From positions 1 to 26,568 of IMG/VR virus record IMGVR_UViG_3300003322_000457: 26,568 nucleotides of DNA, one strand, 5' to 3'. Positions 5,558 to 25,020 of the stretch are shown here, in pieces. A program made the position numbers and the translations under genes. This DNA comes from a virus. Every line of letters starts with the position of its first letter. The stretch's first letter is position 1. The notes beneath the pieces were generated by a model that was not told the origin of the DNA, made no database searches, and was given only the letters and a program-made list of their open reading frames with translations.

Positions 5558-6673
5558 TTAGGCGTTCTGCAGTTCGTAGTAGCTGCCGTCAGGCGTCTGC
5601 AGGTAGGGCTTGCCGGCCGTGTCGTACACCACCACCCCCGTCTGCCCGCCCACGGTCACCTGCTGGCCCTGCTGCGGCGCGGCAGTGCTACCGCCGGCCG
5701 CTGCGCCGCCGCTGGCTGCGCCCGTGCTGCTACCACCGCCCACCGCCGGCAGTGCGTTCTGCAGCTGGCTGGCCGTGCTCGTCGAGGGCGTGAAGCCCTT
5801 CCCAAAATACAGGCTGTTGAGGTGCTGGATCTTGGTCTGCTTGATCTCTTGCGAGTCCTGCCCGTCAAGGATGCCCATGTACAGATTGGTGTACTGGTTG
5901 AACTGGTTGTTGTTGAGCTGGTCGCGGGCCAGCGCCTGGCTTGCGTCGAACTGCTTTTGGTTCTGCTCGCGGCTCTTGGCGTTCTCCGCCGCGTTGTACT
6001 CGTTCTGCGCCTTGGTCTGCGAGGCGCTGAAGGCGTTCTGTGCCTGGTCGCGGGCCGTCTGCACATTGGCATTGAAGGCCGTCAGATTGCTCTGGTTCTG
6101 CGCGCTGGCGTTGAACTGCGAGGCCTGGTTCTGCGCGCTCTGGTTGGCCAGCCCCTGCTGCAGATAGGTTTGGGCGTCCTGGGTGGCGATCGGCAGCGCC
6201 TGGCCTATCATTGCCTCGGTGCCAGCCTGCGCCGCGATCGAGCTATTCACCAGCCCGCGCGCGTTGGCCGTCTGCATCGCCTTGCCGGCGGCCTGGTCCA
6301 GCAGCGGCGAGCCATCGGCCAGGATCTTCTTGAGCTGGTTCTGCGCCAGGTCCGTGTCCTGCACATTCCGCGTGGTCGCCGCGTAGGTCACCGCCTCGGG
6401 CGCCTTGTAGTCCTCGCCGGCCTTGTAGCCGTAGGTGTTACCCCAGACGTTGGCCAAGTCCTTGTTGGCCTTCGCGGCATCGTCCATGCTCATGCCGGCG
6501 GTCATTTTTAGCTTGCTGCCGTCGGTACCGGTGTAGGTCGCGCCGCCGTCAGCATCGCGTACCACGTTCCAGCCGGCGCCGGTATCCACCTTGTCGCCTG
6601 CCTTGCTGGTGTTCCAGAAGCTGCCCCAGTCCTTGCGCATCTGGTCGTTGATCGTGCTCTGCACTATCGCCAT
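5558..6673 (-). CDS. Predicted tail/internal virion protein, Gln/Asn-rich helix
   Basis: The protein has 371 residues. The start chosen is the ATG at 6673 with GGAG 6 nt before it; an in-frame extension to 6715 would read through the terminator hairpin. The N-terminal 90 residues look globular. Residues 100-265 form a long polar helix very rich in Gln, Asn and Ala with the repeated pattern QNQ, and a Gly/Ser/Ala-rich linker (about 310-335) leads to a short C-terminal beta segment containing VGGQTGVVVYD. A rod-like helical region with a small end domain fits a virion component such as an ejected core or tail needle protein. The family is not recognised, so the assignment rests on context. Confidence 0.86.
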   Translation of the reverse strand: MAIVQSTINDQMRKDWGSFWNTSKAGDKVDTGAGWNVVRDADGGATYTGTDGSKLKMTAGMSMDDAAKANKDLANVWGNTYGYKAGEDYKAPEAVTYAATTRNVQDTDLAQNQLKKILADGSPLLDQAAGKAMQTANARGLVNSSIAAQAGTEAMIGQALPIATQDAQTYLQQGLANQSAQNQASQFNASAQNQSNLTAFNANVQTARDQAQNAFSASQTKAQNEYNAAENAKSREQNQKQFDASQALARDQLNNNQFNQYTNLYMGILDGQDSQEIKQTKIQHLNSLYFGKGFTPSTSTASQLQNALPAVGGGSSTGAASGGAAAGGSTAAPQQGQQVTVGGQTGVVVYDTAGKPYLQTPDGSYYELQNA

Positions 6674-22103: not shown

Positions 22104-22682
22104 TTACGCTGCTTTTTGCTCCCCTTCAGGCTCTCCGAGACTCGCGTATATCCCCTGCATGTACGCCTCCCCCGTCGCTGGTATCCACAACTCGCCGTCG
22201 GGCTGCAGGACCAAGTAGTTGCGCGTCAGCACATTCTTGAACCACAGGCGCCCATCAGCGTCGCGGCCCATCAGCATGAAATCGGTCGGGTAGCAGCGCA
22301 CGCCCTCTGCCTCACGGTGCACTACGCGGTCCAGGCGCTCGGGGCGTGTGCAATGCCGCCGGGGCCGCCCGATAGCGCGCCACGCGGCCCCGCCCTTCCC
22401 GTCCGACTCCATGCGCACCTCCTCCACCAGCACTGACCAGCCACCCCGCCCATCGGCATCCAGCGACAGCACGCGGTCATGGCTCTGCCAGTAATGCTTG
22501 AACACCACATTCCCCGGCACATAGAACGCGGCCACCTCGGGCGGCACGGCCGGCGGCGCCACCGGTAGCAGCTGCTGAGCCAGCGCCCGGACCAATGCCG
22601 CCCAGCCCTCCACAAACGCCGACGACTCACGGCGCACCAACTGCAAGCTGCTCACCCCACGGTCTACCAGATGCTCACTCAT
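22104..22682 (-). CDS. Hypothetical protein, second gene of the minus-strand pair
   Basis: The protein has 192 residues. The ATG at 22682 overlaps the upstream stop by 8 nt. An N-terminal Leu/Ala-rich helix (about 20-50) and a Pro-rich turn (51-58) are followed by an all-beta-looking domain with regular short strands (YVPGNVVFKHYWQ, then GRLWFKNV and ELWIPATG). It ends directly before the late-operon control region, so in a lambda-like arrangement this would be the slot of a late regulator; no helix-turn-helix or zinc motif supports such a role. The family is not recognised. Confidence 0.82.
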   Translation of the reverse strand: MSEHLVDRGVSSLQLVRRESSAFVEGWAALVRALAQQLLPVAPPAVPPEVAAFYVPGNVVFKHYWQSHDRVLSLDADGRGGWSVLVEEVRMESDGKGGAAWRAIGRPRRHCTRPERLDRVVHREAEGVRCYPTDFMLMGRDADGRLWFKNVLTRNYLVLQPDGELWIPATGEAYMQGIYASLGEPEGEQKAA

Positions 22683-22989
22683 CGCCTTGCCCTCCCAGGT
22701 ACTCGCTCTCAAACATCAACTCGGTCACGCCCGTGGCGAAGTCCGTCACCACCACCAGCACGCCCCCATGCTTCCGGTCGGGCCGCTTCAGCACATACCG
22801 CGACACCGCCCGCCCCTTCACCCCCTCGGCCAGCTCGTTGGCTTTCACCAACTGAGCATCCGCCTCACCCCAGTCGCCACTGGTATGGCGCACCAGGTAA
22901 TCAACCGGCGCCAGGTTGCGCCGAACCGCGTACTCCATCACTGCAAGCGAAACCATCACCCGCCCGCTGTTAAACCGCCTAGGACTCAT
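22675..22989 (-). CDS. Hypothetical protein of a phage/plasmid accessory family (GDWGE motif)
   Basis: The protein has 104 residues. The ATG at 22989 is chosen because GGAGG lies 7 nt upstream; an earlier in-frame codon at 23010 would start inside the operator region. The motif HTSGDWGEADAQL (40-52), followed by NE at about 56-57, an SRY (about 69) and a C-terminal VTDFATGVTELMFESEY, matches a widespread small protein of plasmids, conjugative elements and phages whose function is unknown. Its promoter carries copies of the GTATCTAC operator, so it is probably repressed with the divergent operon. Family recognition is from memory of the motif. Confidence 0.85.
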   Translation of the reverse strand: MSPRRFNSGRVMVSLAVMEYAVRRNLAPVDYLVRHTSGDWGEADAQLVKANELAEGVKGRAVSRYVLKRPDRKHGGVLVVVTDFATGVTELMFESEYLGGQGDE

Positions 22990-22999
22990 TGACGCCTCC

Positions 23000-23034
23000 G
23001 TATCTACCACCGGCCGGTCGGCCGGTGTAGATAC
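23000..23034. repeat. Imperfect inverted repeat in the leader of the minus-strand operon
   Basis: The arms GTATCTAC and GTAGATAC flank a perfect 8-bp stem (23008-23015 and 23020-23027) with a 4-nt loop, joined with a single-base offset. In RNA of the minus strand this forms a hairpin ending just before the GGAGG of the gene at 22989, so it may affect translation as well as bind a repressor dimer. Confidence 0.7.
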
Positions 23035-23064
23035 AATGTAGAGCCGTCATTTTTCCCTCGTCAA
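23035..23064 (-). promoter_or_regulatory. Promoter of the minus-strand gene pair
   Basis: On the minus strand TTGACG (+ 23059-23064) is followed after 18 bp by TACATT (+ 23035-23040). The -35 matches the sigma-70 consensus in 5 of 6 bases. Transcription would start near 23028, inside an operator copy that directly follows the -10. Confidence 0.65.
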
Positions 23065-23197
23065 GTTCAATGTGTCGTCATTGTATCTACTTGATGGCTC
23101 ATCTGGCAAGCGTAATACGCATTGATACGCAATAATAACGGGGCTTTCGGCGTGGTACGCGTGGAATTTATACGGTTAATAGGTATCTACTAATCGC

Positions 23198-23227
23198 TTG
23201 CATTTTATGTTGCAGTGTATCTACAAT
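23198..23227 (+). promoter_or_regulatory. Promoter of the AbrB-like operon
   Basis: TACAAT (23222-23227) is a good -10 (5 of 6), with TTGCAT 18 bp upstream (23198-23203) as a weak -35. The operator at 23217-23224 overlaps the -10, and another at 23183-23190 lies just upstream, so the operon is probably repressible. The predicted leader is about 74 nt. Confidence 0.6.
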
Positions 23228-23307
23228 GTATCGTCATTCGATCAACCGCACATCCCAGCAAAGGGGCGATACAATGTCGATACGCAACAACAGTCCAAAG
23301 GACCAAC

Positions 23308-23541
23308 ATGCAGCAACTGGAGATCAGCAAATGGGGCAACAGCGCAGCCCTGCGCCTGCCGCGGGGGCTACTGGATGCAATGGGGGTAGCGATCGGGGAC
23401 CAGGTGTCGGTCAAAGTGGAGAACGGGCAGCTCATCATCAGCCCGCCCGGGCAGGGCAACGCCCTGGAGCAGCTGACCCTCAAGGTCGAGCAGCTGCAGA
23501 AGCAGGTCGATCAATTGCAGGCCTCCGCGACCAAGCGCTGA
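23308..23541 (+). CDS. AbrB/MazE-type (SpoVT-AbrB fold) DNA-binding protein
   Basis: The protein has 77 residues. The ATG at 23308 follows AAAGGACCAAC. Residues 1-48 show the swapped-hairpin AbrB/MazE fold: ISKWGNSAALRLPRGLLDAMG, then GDQVSVKVENGQLIISP. The last 25 residues are a Leu/Gln/Val heptad helix (LEQLTLKVEQLQKQVDQL), probably a coiled coil for oligomers, in place of the disordered toxin-binding tail of MazE antitoxins. No MazF-like toxin is downstream. It is the first gene after an operator array and probably represses its own promoter and the divergent one. The fold is well supported; operator binding is inference. Confidence 0.92.
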   Translation: MQQLEISKWGNSAALRLPRGLLDAMGVAIGDQVSVKVENGQLIISPPGQGNALEQLTLKVEQLQKQVDQLQASATKR

Positions 23542-23546
23542 GCAAC

Positions 23547-23834
23547 ATGGACGCCCAGGCCCACCAGCTTGCCGCCGCCTTTGGCCTCGATGGCAGCGCC
23601 ATGGCCGGCCTGGTCCGCTTCCTGTTCAGCCGCATCGAGAACTACGGCTTCGACAACTTCGCCGCCCTGCCCGAGACAGGCAAGAAGGCCGCCATCAACG
23701 CCGCAGTGAAAGCCTACGAACAGGCCTCGCGCCGTTACTACACCCGCCTCCTCACCGATCCCGCCGCCTTCAACGAGCTGGCCGAGCAGGTCTGGGAAGA
23801 GATCAACGACCAAGCCGCCCAGGGAGTGCACTGA
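23547..23834 (+). CDS. Hypothetical protein partnered with the AbrB-like gene
   Basis: The protein has 95 residues and begins 5 nt after the AbrB-like stop. It is mostly helical: an N-terminal helix with Ala/Gly, then FLFSRIENYGFDNFAAL, an AINAAVKAYEQASRRYYTRLL helix and an acidic C-terminal helix. The same frame is open further upstream, but that part is a shadow of the AbrB-like gene with a non-protein composition. It does not resemble MazF. As the immediate partner of the regulator it could be its co-factor, but no evidence fixes this. The stop overlaps the next ATG by 1 nt. Confidence 0.82.
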   Translation: MDAQAHQLAAAFGLDGSAMAGLVRFLFSRIENYGFDNFAALPETGKKAAINAAVKAYEQASRRYYTRLLTDPAAFNELAEQVWEEINDQAAQGVH

Positions 23835-24346
23835 TGGCTATCTATCGCCCACTGCGCACCATCGGTACCGCGCTGAACAAATGGGCCTGCGCCGGCAACT
23901 TAATCCCAGCCGGCCGCATTCGCTGCGCCGTCGCCGATGCTGGTATTGCCCTTATCTGGATGTCGCGTGACTTTGGCTACGACAACCGCACATTCGCCCA
24001 GCGCATGCGATCCGGTAATGAAGCCTGGCGAGCTGCATTTAGGACGCTATTCAACCTCGACGAGCCCTACACGCCACCAACCCCAGAAGCAAACGGCCCA
24101 ACGAAAAAGCAGCAGCTGATCGCCGCCATACAGGAGTGGCGTGAAGAGACAGGGCACATCGGTAAAGGCGGCGTCGTTATCTGCTACTGGGGCGAGCCAC
24201 AAGGCTGGCGGGATACGCTCCGCAACCCCGAGGAGTGGCTGCAGGGCTGCGTGGCTGTCGACGAGGCGGGCCAGCGCTGGCTCGCCGTCGGCGAAGACGA
24301 TGATGACAATGCGAACGAATGGTATTTGATCAAGGAGGCAGCATGA
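23834..24346 (+). CDS. Hypothetical protein, accessory operon
   Basis: The protein has 170 residues. An N-terminal domain (1-75) has two Trp and Arg-rich helices. A Pro-rich linker (78-88) follows, then a C-terminal domain with a QLIAAIQEWREETG helix and beta strands GGVVICYWG and RWLAVGE. The C-terminal tail is very acidic (EDDDD). The ATG overlaps the previous stop (TGATG) and the stop overlaps the next start (ATGA), so the three genes are translationally coupled. No motif was recognised. Confidence 0.82.
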   Translation: MAIYRPLRTIGTALNKWACAGNLIPAGRIRCAVADAGIALIWMSRDFGYDNRTFAQRMRSGNEAWRAAFRTLFNLDEPYTPPTPEANGPTKKQQLIAAIQEWREETGHIGKGGVVICYWGEPQGWRDTLRNPEEWLQGCVAVDEAGQRWLAVGEDDDDNANEWYLIKEAA

Positions 24347-25020
24347 GCGCGCCAACCGAACAGGAATTCCTGCGCGATGTAGCGCAGCACGAAATGCAGG
24401 TGCTGATGGACAACGGCGTCTATCGCCACATCCGCTTCAAGCAGCCTGGCACCGTCTGTATGCACTTTGATTTCATCACCTATCCCGGGCACCTGGTCTA
24501 CTCGGGCGACATGGGCTGTTACGTCTTTTCGCGGTTGTACGATATGTTCGAGTTCTTCCGCACAGACCGAAAATACGCAGAGCGGAGCGGTCGGCAGCTG
24601 GCCATCAACCTCAGTTACTGGTCGGAAAAGCTGGAGGCCGTGGATGGAAACCGCCGCAGCGGCGCGGCCAAGGAGTACAGCCCGGAGAAGTTTGAGCGCG
24701 CAGTGAAGGAACAACTGGTGACGTGGTGGCGCGAATCAAACCTTACCCGCGAACAGCGCCGGGAGTTGCGCCAAGAGGTCGAATACGAGGTACTGGACAA
24801 GAGCCACGATGGCGACGTCCGCGCCTACGATGCCGCCCATGGTTTCCACCACACCATCGGTAGCCACAAGTTCATGTTTCGCGACTGGTGGGACCATGAT
24901 TTCACCGACTACACCCATCGCTTCAAGTGGTGTTGCTATGCGCTAGCCTGGGGTATCAAACAGTACGACGATGCCAAAGCCGCTGCACAAACCACCCCGC
25001 CGGCCGAGCAGGCCGCGTAA
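24343..25020 (+). CDS. Phage protein of unknown function (YPGHLVYSGDMG family)
   Basis: The protein has 225 residues. The ATG at 24343 is preceded by AAGGAGG; an earlier in-frame start would lie inside the previous gene. The central motif TYPGHLVYSGDMG, followed by YVFSRLYDMFEFFR, marks a family seen in many temperate phages, with the upstream part (EFLRDVAQHEMQVLMDNGVYRH) also typical. The middle is a basic and acidic helix region (about 120-150); the C-terminus has an aromatic-rich helix (RFKWCCYALAWGIKQY). The family has no assigned function. It contains no known catalytic motif; many conserved aromatic and acidic residues suggest binding of a substrate or nucleic acid. Recognition is from memory of the motif. 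Confidence 0.88.
   Translation: MSAPTEQEFLRDVAQHEMQVLMDNGVYRHIRFKQPGTVCMHFDFITYPGHLVYSGDMGCYVFSRLYDMFEFFRTDRKYAERSGRQLAINLSYWSEKLEAVDGNRRSGAAKEYSPEKFERAVKEQLVTWWRESNLTREQRRELRQEVEYEVLDKSHDGDVRAYDAAHGFHHTIGSHKFMFRDWWDHDFTDYTHRFKWCCYALAWGIKQYDDAKAAAQTTPPAEQAA

Follow-up and report, generated by a model that had tools for sequence, protein, structure and literature searches.

MazE-type operators facing both ways beside an orphan MazE-family gene in a viral genome fragment

The closest described counterpart of the locus presented here is the mazEF toxin-antitoxin operon of Escherichia coli, whose promoter holds a MazE-bound operator, the "alternating palindrome" (PMC4803016, reviewing Marianovsky et al. 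2001), and whose MazE contacts DNA through residues Trp-9, Asn-11, and Arg-16 (PMC4803016). Our window, i.e., the whole stretch of DNA analyzed, comprises positions 1 to 26,568 of the IMG/VR record IMGVR_UViG_3300003322_000457, a viral fragment of 26.6 kb. The locus in this window shares with E. coli mazEF the GTATCTAC half-sites, the AAT core, the position of the operator within the promoter, and a MazE-family DNA-binding domain with W9, N11, and R16. The E. coli operon differs in encoding a MazF toxin and in having a single operator region with one orientation; in the phage, four operators point two each way, the window has no MazF, and a predicted helical tail replaces the MazF-binding tail. 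Cro/CI-type immunity regions are alike in that several operators lie between divergent promoters with a regulator gene beside them, but the phage array is accompanied by a swapped-hairpin MazE/AbrB protein and by no helix-turn-helix repressor. This bears out the view of a first-pass annotation of this DNA that the array is not of the Cro/CI type. The same annotation had stated that no matching system was known, which is not supported, since GTATCTAC is, as judged from sequence, a half-site of the MazE operator in mazEF toxin-antitoxin operons. The system to which the motif belongs is known; what is new is a phage antitoxin homolog without a detectable toxin, combined with four operators facing both ways. 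The genes flanking the array are the following:

23308..23541, plus strand: orphan MazE/SpoVT-AbrB protein, putative repressor; 77 amino acids, with a MazE-like N-terminal domain and a C-terminal helix
23547..23834, plus strand: downstream gene of the mazE-like operon; 95 amino acids, phrog_25188, predicted to be all-helical, not MazF
22675..22989, minus strand: gB, which opens the divergent pair; related to a conserved protein of plasmids whose function is unknown
22104..22680, minus strand: gA, which follows gB in the divergent pair; searches gave no relatives

The first-pass annotation had described five copies of an 8-mer in about 225 bp, four in plus and one in minus orientation, as well as a 12-bp inverted pair, and both descriptions were confirmed. 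All five exact copies of GTATCTAC in the window lie within 225 bp (23000-23224), against an expectation of 0.16 for the whole window and a maximum of 1 in 100 shuffles, and the inverted pair is located at 23027-23038 and 23079-23090. Given that the 8-mer had been picked post hoc, we used an unbiased 8-mer scan of the whole window as a control, in which GTATCTAC was the sole 8-mer with at least four nonoverlapping copies per 300 bp. The larger unit, which was absent from the first-pass annotation, spans 19 bp as a near-palindrome, GTATCTAC-AWT-GTAGATAC, of which the array has four copies with 4 or 5 mismatches in 18 positions each. These four sites (23027-23045, 23217-23235, 23072-23090, and 23265-23283) are the best operator matches in the entire 26.6 kb, and sites with up to 6 mismatches were found four times compared to 0.11 expected from shuffles of the region. 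Each operator is imperfect, consisting of one exact or near-exact half and a degenerate half. The AAT/ATT core is kept in all four and forms, together with neighboring bases, TACAAT or TACATT, a −10-like hexamer, twice in plus and twice in minus sense. Upstream of the mazE-like gene we thus found four imperfect copies of the operator form over such a hexamer. The elements of the array are as follows:

23000 (plus), 23027 (minus), 23083 (plus), 23183 (plus), and 23217 (plus): exact copies of GTATCTAC, four plus and one minus
23217..23235, plus strand: MazE-type operator 1, GTATCTACAATGTATCGTC; 4 of 18 positions mismatched to GTATCTACANTGTAGATAC; overlaps TACAAT at 23222-23227
23265..23283, plus strand: MazE-type operator 2, GGCGATACAATGTCGATAC; 5 of 18 mismatched; contains a plus-sense TACAAT
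23027..23045, minus strand: MazE-type operator 3, GTAGATACAATGTAGAGCC on the plus strand; 4 of 18 mismatched; overlaps the promoter-like TTGACG-18-TACATT
23072..23090, minus strand: MazE-type operator 4, GTGTCGTCATTGTATCTAC on the plus strand; 5 of 18 mismatched; overlaps the promoter-like TTGCCA-18-TACAAT
23000..23007, plus strand: lone exact half-site GTATCTAC; forms a stem-loop base with 23027-23034
23183..23190, plus strand: lone exact half-site GTATCTAC; precedes the plus-strand promoter candidate

The two lone half-sites, exact 8-mers at 23000 and 23183 that have no partner half-site, fit the full-operator model poorly.

The identity of the motif was drawn from comparison with mazE loci. 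Two exact copies of GTATCTAC are present in the 77-bp interval upstream of mazE in E. coli K-12 (L201), and GTATCTACAATGTA (window positions 23217-23230) represents 14 nucleotides identical to the E. coli mazEF operator, a length reached by none of 2,000 simulated regions. A GntR/HutC-type operator was considered and dropped, because the match to E. coli mazEF and the conserved asymmetric TC center better account for the site. Among 20 plasmid MazE-type loci, 6 contain an exact GTATCTAC within 200 bp upstream (null mean, 0.12; at most 2 in 300 shuffles), and sites of the same type with up to one mismatch number 36 versus 2.8 expected, a count in which the self-complementary GTATATAC was scored on both strands, i.e., twice. 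At least one plasmid locus (L206) has the full form GTATCTAC-AAT-GTAGATAC. In genome_contigs, which covers ∼85,000 bacterial and archaeal species genomes, the exact 19-bp operator GTATCTACAWTGTAGATAC occurs in 50 stretches compared to an estimated ∼2 expected by chance. When a profile made from the window protein, E. coli MazE, and the plasmid proteins was applied, a mazE homolog was detected 11 to 31 bp downstream of the operator in 38 of these 50; some of the 12 misses are at stretch ends, and two extra viral matches without MazE were kept outside the 50. The plasmid enrichment and these 38 stretches are the reason for assigning GTATCTAC as a MazE operator half-site, and the census strongly supports, at the sequence level, that GTATCTACAWTGTAGATAC is a widespread mazE operator. 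Proteobacterial plasmid and chromosomal mazEF or chpB-type operons (L206, L207, and L224 to L273) resemble the phage locus in having GTATCTAC-AWT-GTAGATAC directly upstream of a mazE homolog. They differ from it in that, for 35 of the 38 operator-linked genomic loci, the preceding 60 bp contain no other half-site (up to one mismatch) and that MazF directly follows MazE in 31 of the 38, some of the remainder being cut by a stretch end. As a side observation, a MazE homolog on the E. coli plasmid pMyNCGM74 (LC744514; L219, 683-931) carries the annotation "multidrug transporter MatE," which is apparently a misnaming.

The operators were then placed relative to promoter-like sites. The first-pass annotation had the array touching the −10 elements of two divergent promoters, which holds for the minus strand by promoter scanner and for the plus strand by eye. 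The scanner reported TTGCCA-18-TACAAT at 23109-23080, with 10 of 12 consensus matches, and TTGACG-18-TACATT at 23064-23035, both on the minus strand. The plus-strand candidate, TTGCAT-18-TACAAT at 23198-23227, was recognized by eye and is weak by consensus (8 of 12 matches, under the scanner cutoff). Three of the four operators coincide with one of these promoters; the exception is operator 2 (23265-23283), which lies just upstream of the mazE-like gene and for which no good −35 element was recognized. The leader RNA predicted for gB contains an additional element:

22998..23036, minus strand: stem-loop at the start (5′ end) of the leader RNA predicted for gB, directly before the ribosome-binding site

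Its predicted fold has an energy of −26.9 kcal/mol (z = −4.5), and the half-sites at 23000 and 23027 pair as its base. It is possible that this stem-loop acts in translational control or as an RNA stability element.

The product of 23308-23541 matches the PF04014 MazE_antitoxin domain with 43.6 bits (curated cutoff, 24.7). In contrast, it reaches only 33.1 of the 113 bits set by the NCBIfam equivalog model for MazE and 30.1 of the 101 bits set for ChpS, far below both cutoffs, and is hence a family member but not a MazE or ChpS equivalog. In an alignment with 21 operator-linked MazE proteins, K8, W9, G10, N11, S12, and R16 are invariant in the window protein and in all 21, forming one shared set of invariant columns; the retained W9, N11, and R16 correspond to the DNA-contact residues of E. 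coli MazE. The AlphaFold2 model (pLDDT, 85.5) shows the MazE strands followed by a helix at residues 52 to 75, and the nearest PDB entries (2mrn, 1ub4, 1mvf, and 2mru) are all E. coli MazE, with 2mru being a DNA complex. Based on sequence and model, the protein is a member of the MazE/SpoVT-AbrB family with a predicted MazE fold. The alignment also shows that the motif around GxPVGKE, which other MazE proteins have in their MazF-binding tail, is absent from this protein; the predicted helix, with a heptad-like pattern, takes the place where the MazF-wrapping tail would be. Neither PF02452 nor an HMM built in this analysis detected a MazF/PemK gene in the 26.6-kb window, although, the record being a fragment, a toxin gene may lie elsewhere in the genome. 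The earlier suggestion that this AbrB/MazE-type product is the likely binder of the array is supported by the MazE-operator identity, the protein family, and the contact residues and is very likely right.

We therefore consider it probable, at roughly 0.8, that the array consists of MazE-type operators and that the toxin-less MazE-family protein of the phage itself (23308-23541) binds them, acting as an antitoxin-derived transcriptional repressor. A MazE dimer would recognize GTATCTAC half-sites, and the full operator would consist of two half-sites placed 11 bp apart around the AAT/ATT core. Given that the core and the left-hand TAC make up the −10-like hexamer, we propose that bound MazE would cover the −10 and block RNA polymerase. 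As two operators face the mazE-like operon and two face gB-gA, one protein could repress both itself and the divergent pair. We infer that the 23308-23541 product binds and represses at these sites, autoregulating its own operon and also controlling gB-gA, with a putative role in phage development.

The gene context bears on whether the mazE-like gene could instead belong to a complete toxin-antitoxin module, with either the 23547-23834 product or a divergent gene as a new toxin and the array serving ordinary antitoxin autoregulation. Such an arrangement would be in keeping with 23547-23834 starting only 6 nucleotides after the mazE-like gene ends, a layout known from antitoxin-toxin operons, and with MazF following MazE in 31 of the 38 operator-bearing genomic loci. 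However, the 23547-23834 product is not MazF, has no Pfam match above threshold, and yields an all-helical single-sequence model of low confidence (pLDDT, 67). Furthermore, the MazF-binding tail motif is missing from the MazE-like protein, and more plus-strand open reading frames continue downstream with no clear break, so that we regard a new toxin as unlikely. No viral relatives of the 23547-23834 product were found. On the other side of the array, tblastn matched gB to 29 plasmids, many of them conjugative, at a distant level (best E = 7e-6; ∼32 to 35% identity). A terminator-like hairpin with a 13-bp stem (21712-21682, minus strand) lies between gA and the lysis genes, suggesting that gB-gA forms a unit apart from the lysis and structural genes. 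No integrase was recognized among the window proteins scanned, which were a subset of the open reading frames of this fragmentary contig. The first-pass annotation had taken the array for an early or lysogeny switch, which is a possible role at most. Farther downstream, the 24343-25020 protein belongs to phrog_4657 and has many relatives in viral contigs and mycobacteriophages; in the latter, they adjoin a RecA-like recombinase gene.

To gain an idea about how widespread this arrangement is, we turned to phages and viral contigs. Searching phages with the DNA of window positions 22900-24400 gave no match, and peptide patterns confirmed no relatives of the 23308-23541 product in viral_contigs and genome_contigs. 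Among 80 terminase relatives, including many contigs too short for the region, and in Rhizobium phage RHph_N3_2, we detected neither MazE nor a GTATCTAC array; likewise, 74 loci with relatives of the 24343-25020 protein contained no array, with single copies in some. The first-pass annotation had looked to related phages for conservation of the repeats, and the outcome is mixed: array and gene are not seen in these terminase relatives, whereas the operator is widely conserved in bacterial mazEF operons. A search with a shortened operator returned 118 new viral loci, with mazE adjoining in 3, all of which also had MazF. The viral contigs L303, L326, and L387 carry the operator beside mazE, as here, but with one exact 8-mer each and as complete mazEF pairs, with no orphan and array. 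Within this limited sampling, the orphan with its array was seen solely in our window, suggesting that the module was probably acquired by this phage lineage. Related viral contigs also contain other repeats: AAGCGAGCC, mostly in 36-bp steps near a terminase gene, in two of them (L408, 2078-2367, and L415, 8698-8987), and eight copies of TGAAAGAA in ∼220 bp of another (L431, 7701-7917), possibly a further repeat array.

One Streptomyces-type viral contig (L091; IMGVR_UViG_2865671049_000004) has four GTATCTAC copies within ∼100 bp (6198-6297) between divergent genes, one of whose products looks, by eye, like a small ribbon-helix-helix-type protein. It was set aside as a relative, as no MazE was found in its record. 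Four copies beside a different type of gene, without MazE, would suit the notion that the repeats serve another function, such as a replication origin, where short-repeat arrays are common, or a partition site, and that their likeness to MazE operators is incidental. This is very improbable, given that the match in our window spans the full 19-bp operator form, sits on promoter hexamers, and has a mazE-like neighbor, and that mazE promoters make up 38 of the 50 genomic stretches in which the full operator occurs.

If the array does consist of MazE operators, its main regulator could also be the MazE or MazEF of the host, with the phage promoters mimicking host mazEF operators and opening upon stress-induced loss of the unstable antitoxin. 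Cross-binding is plausible, as many proteobacterial mazEF operons have the very same half-sites, but the phage's own MazE-like gene adjoins the array, making host control an unlikely explanation. A bolder version of regulation by the phage's own protein, which we also hold to be unlikely, is that the antitoxin was made the phage's main two-way repressor and that phage and host MazE cross-regulate, with half-sites matching host mazEF operators. In that event, the level of the labile host antitoxin could signal stress to the phage, and the phage protein could in turn shut down host mazEF.

Returning to repression by the phage's own MazE-family protein, the defined operator and the candidate binder turn a vague "unknown switch" into a directly testable proposal. 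If it is right, an antitoxin DNA-binding domain would have been uncoupled from its toxin and reused in a phage as a repressor whose operator array is expanded and two-directional, raising the question whether phage promoters and host toxin-antitoxin systems engage in cross-talk.
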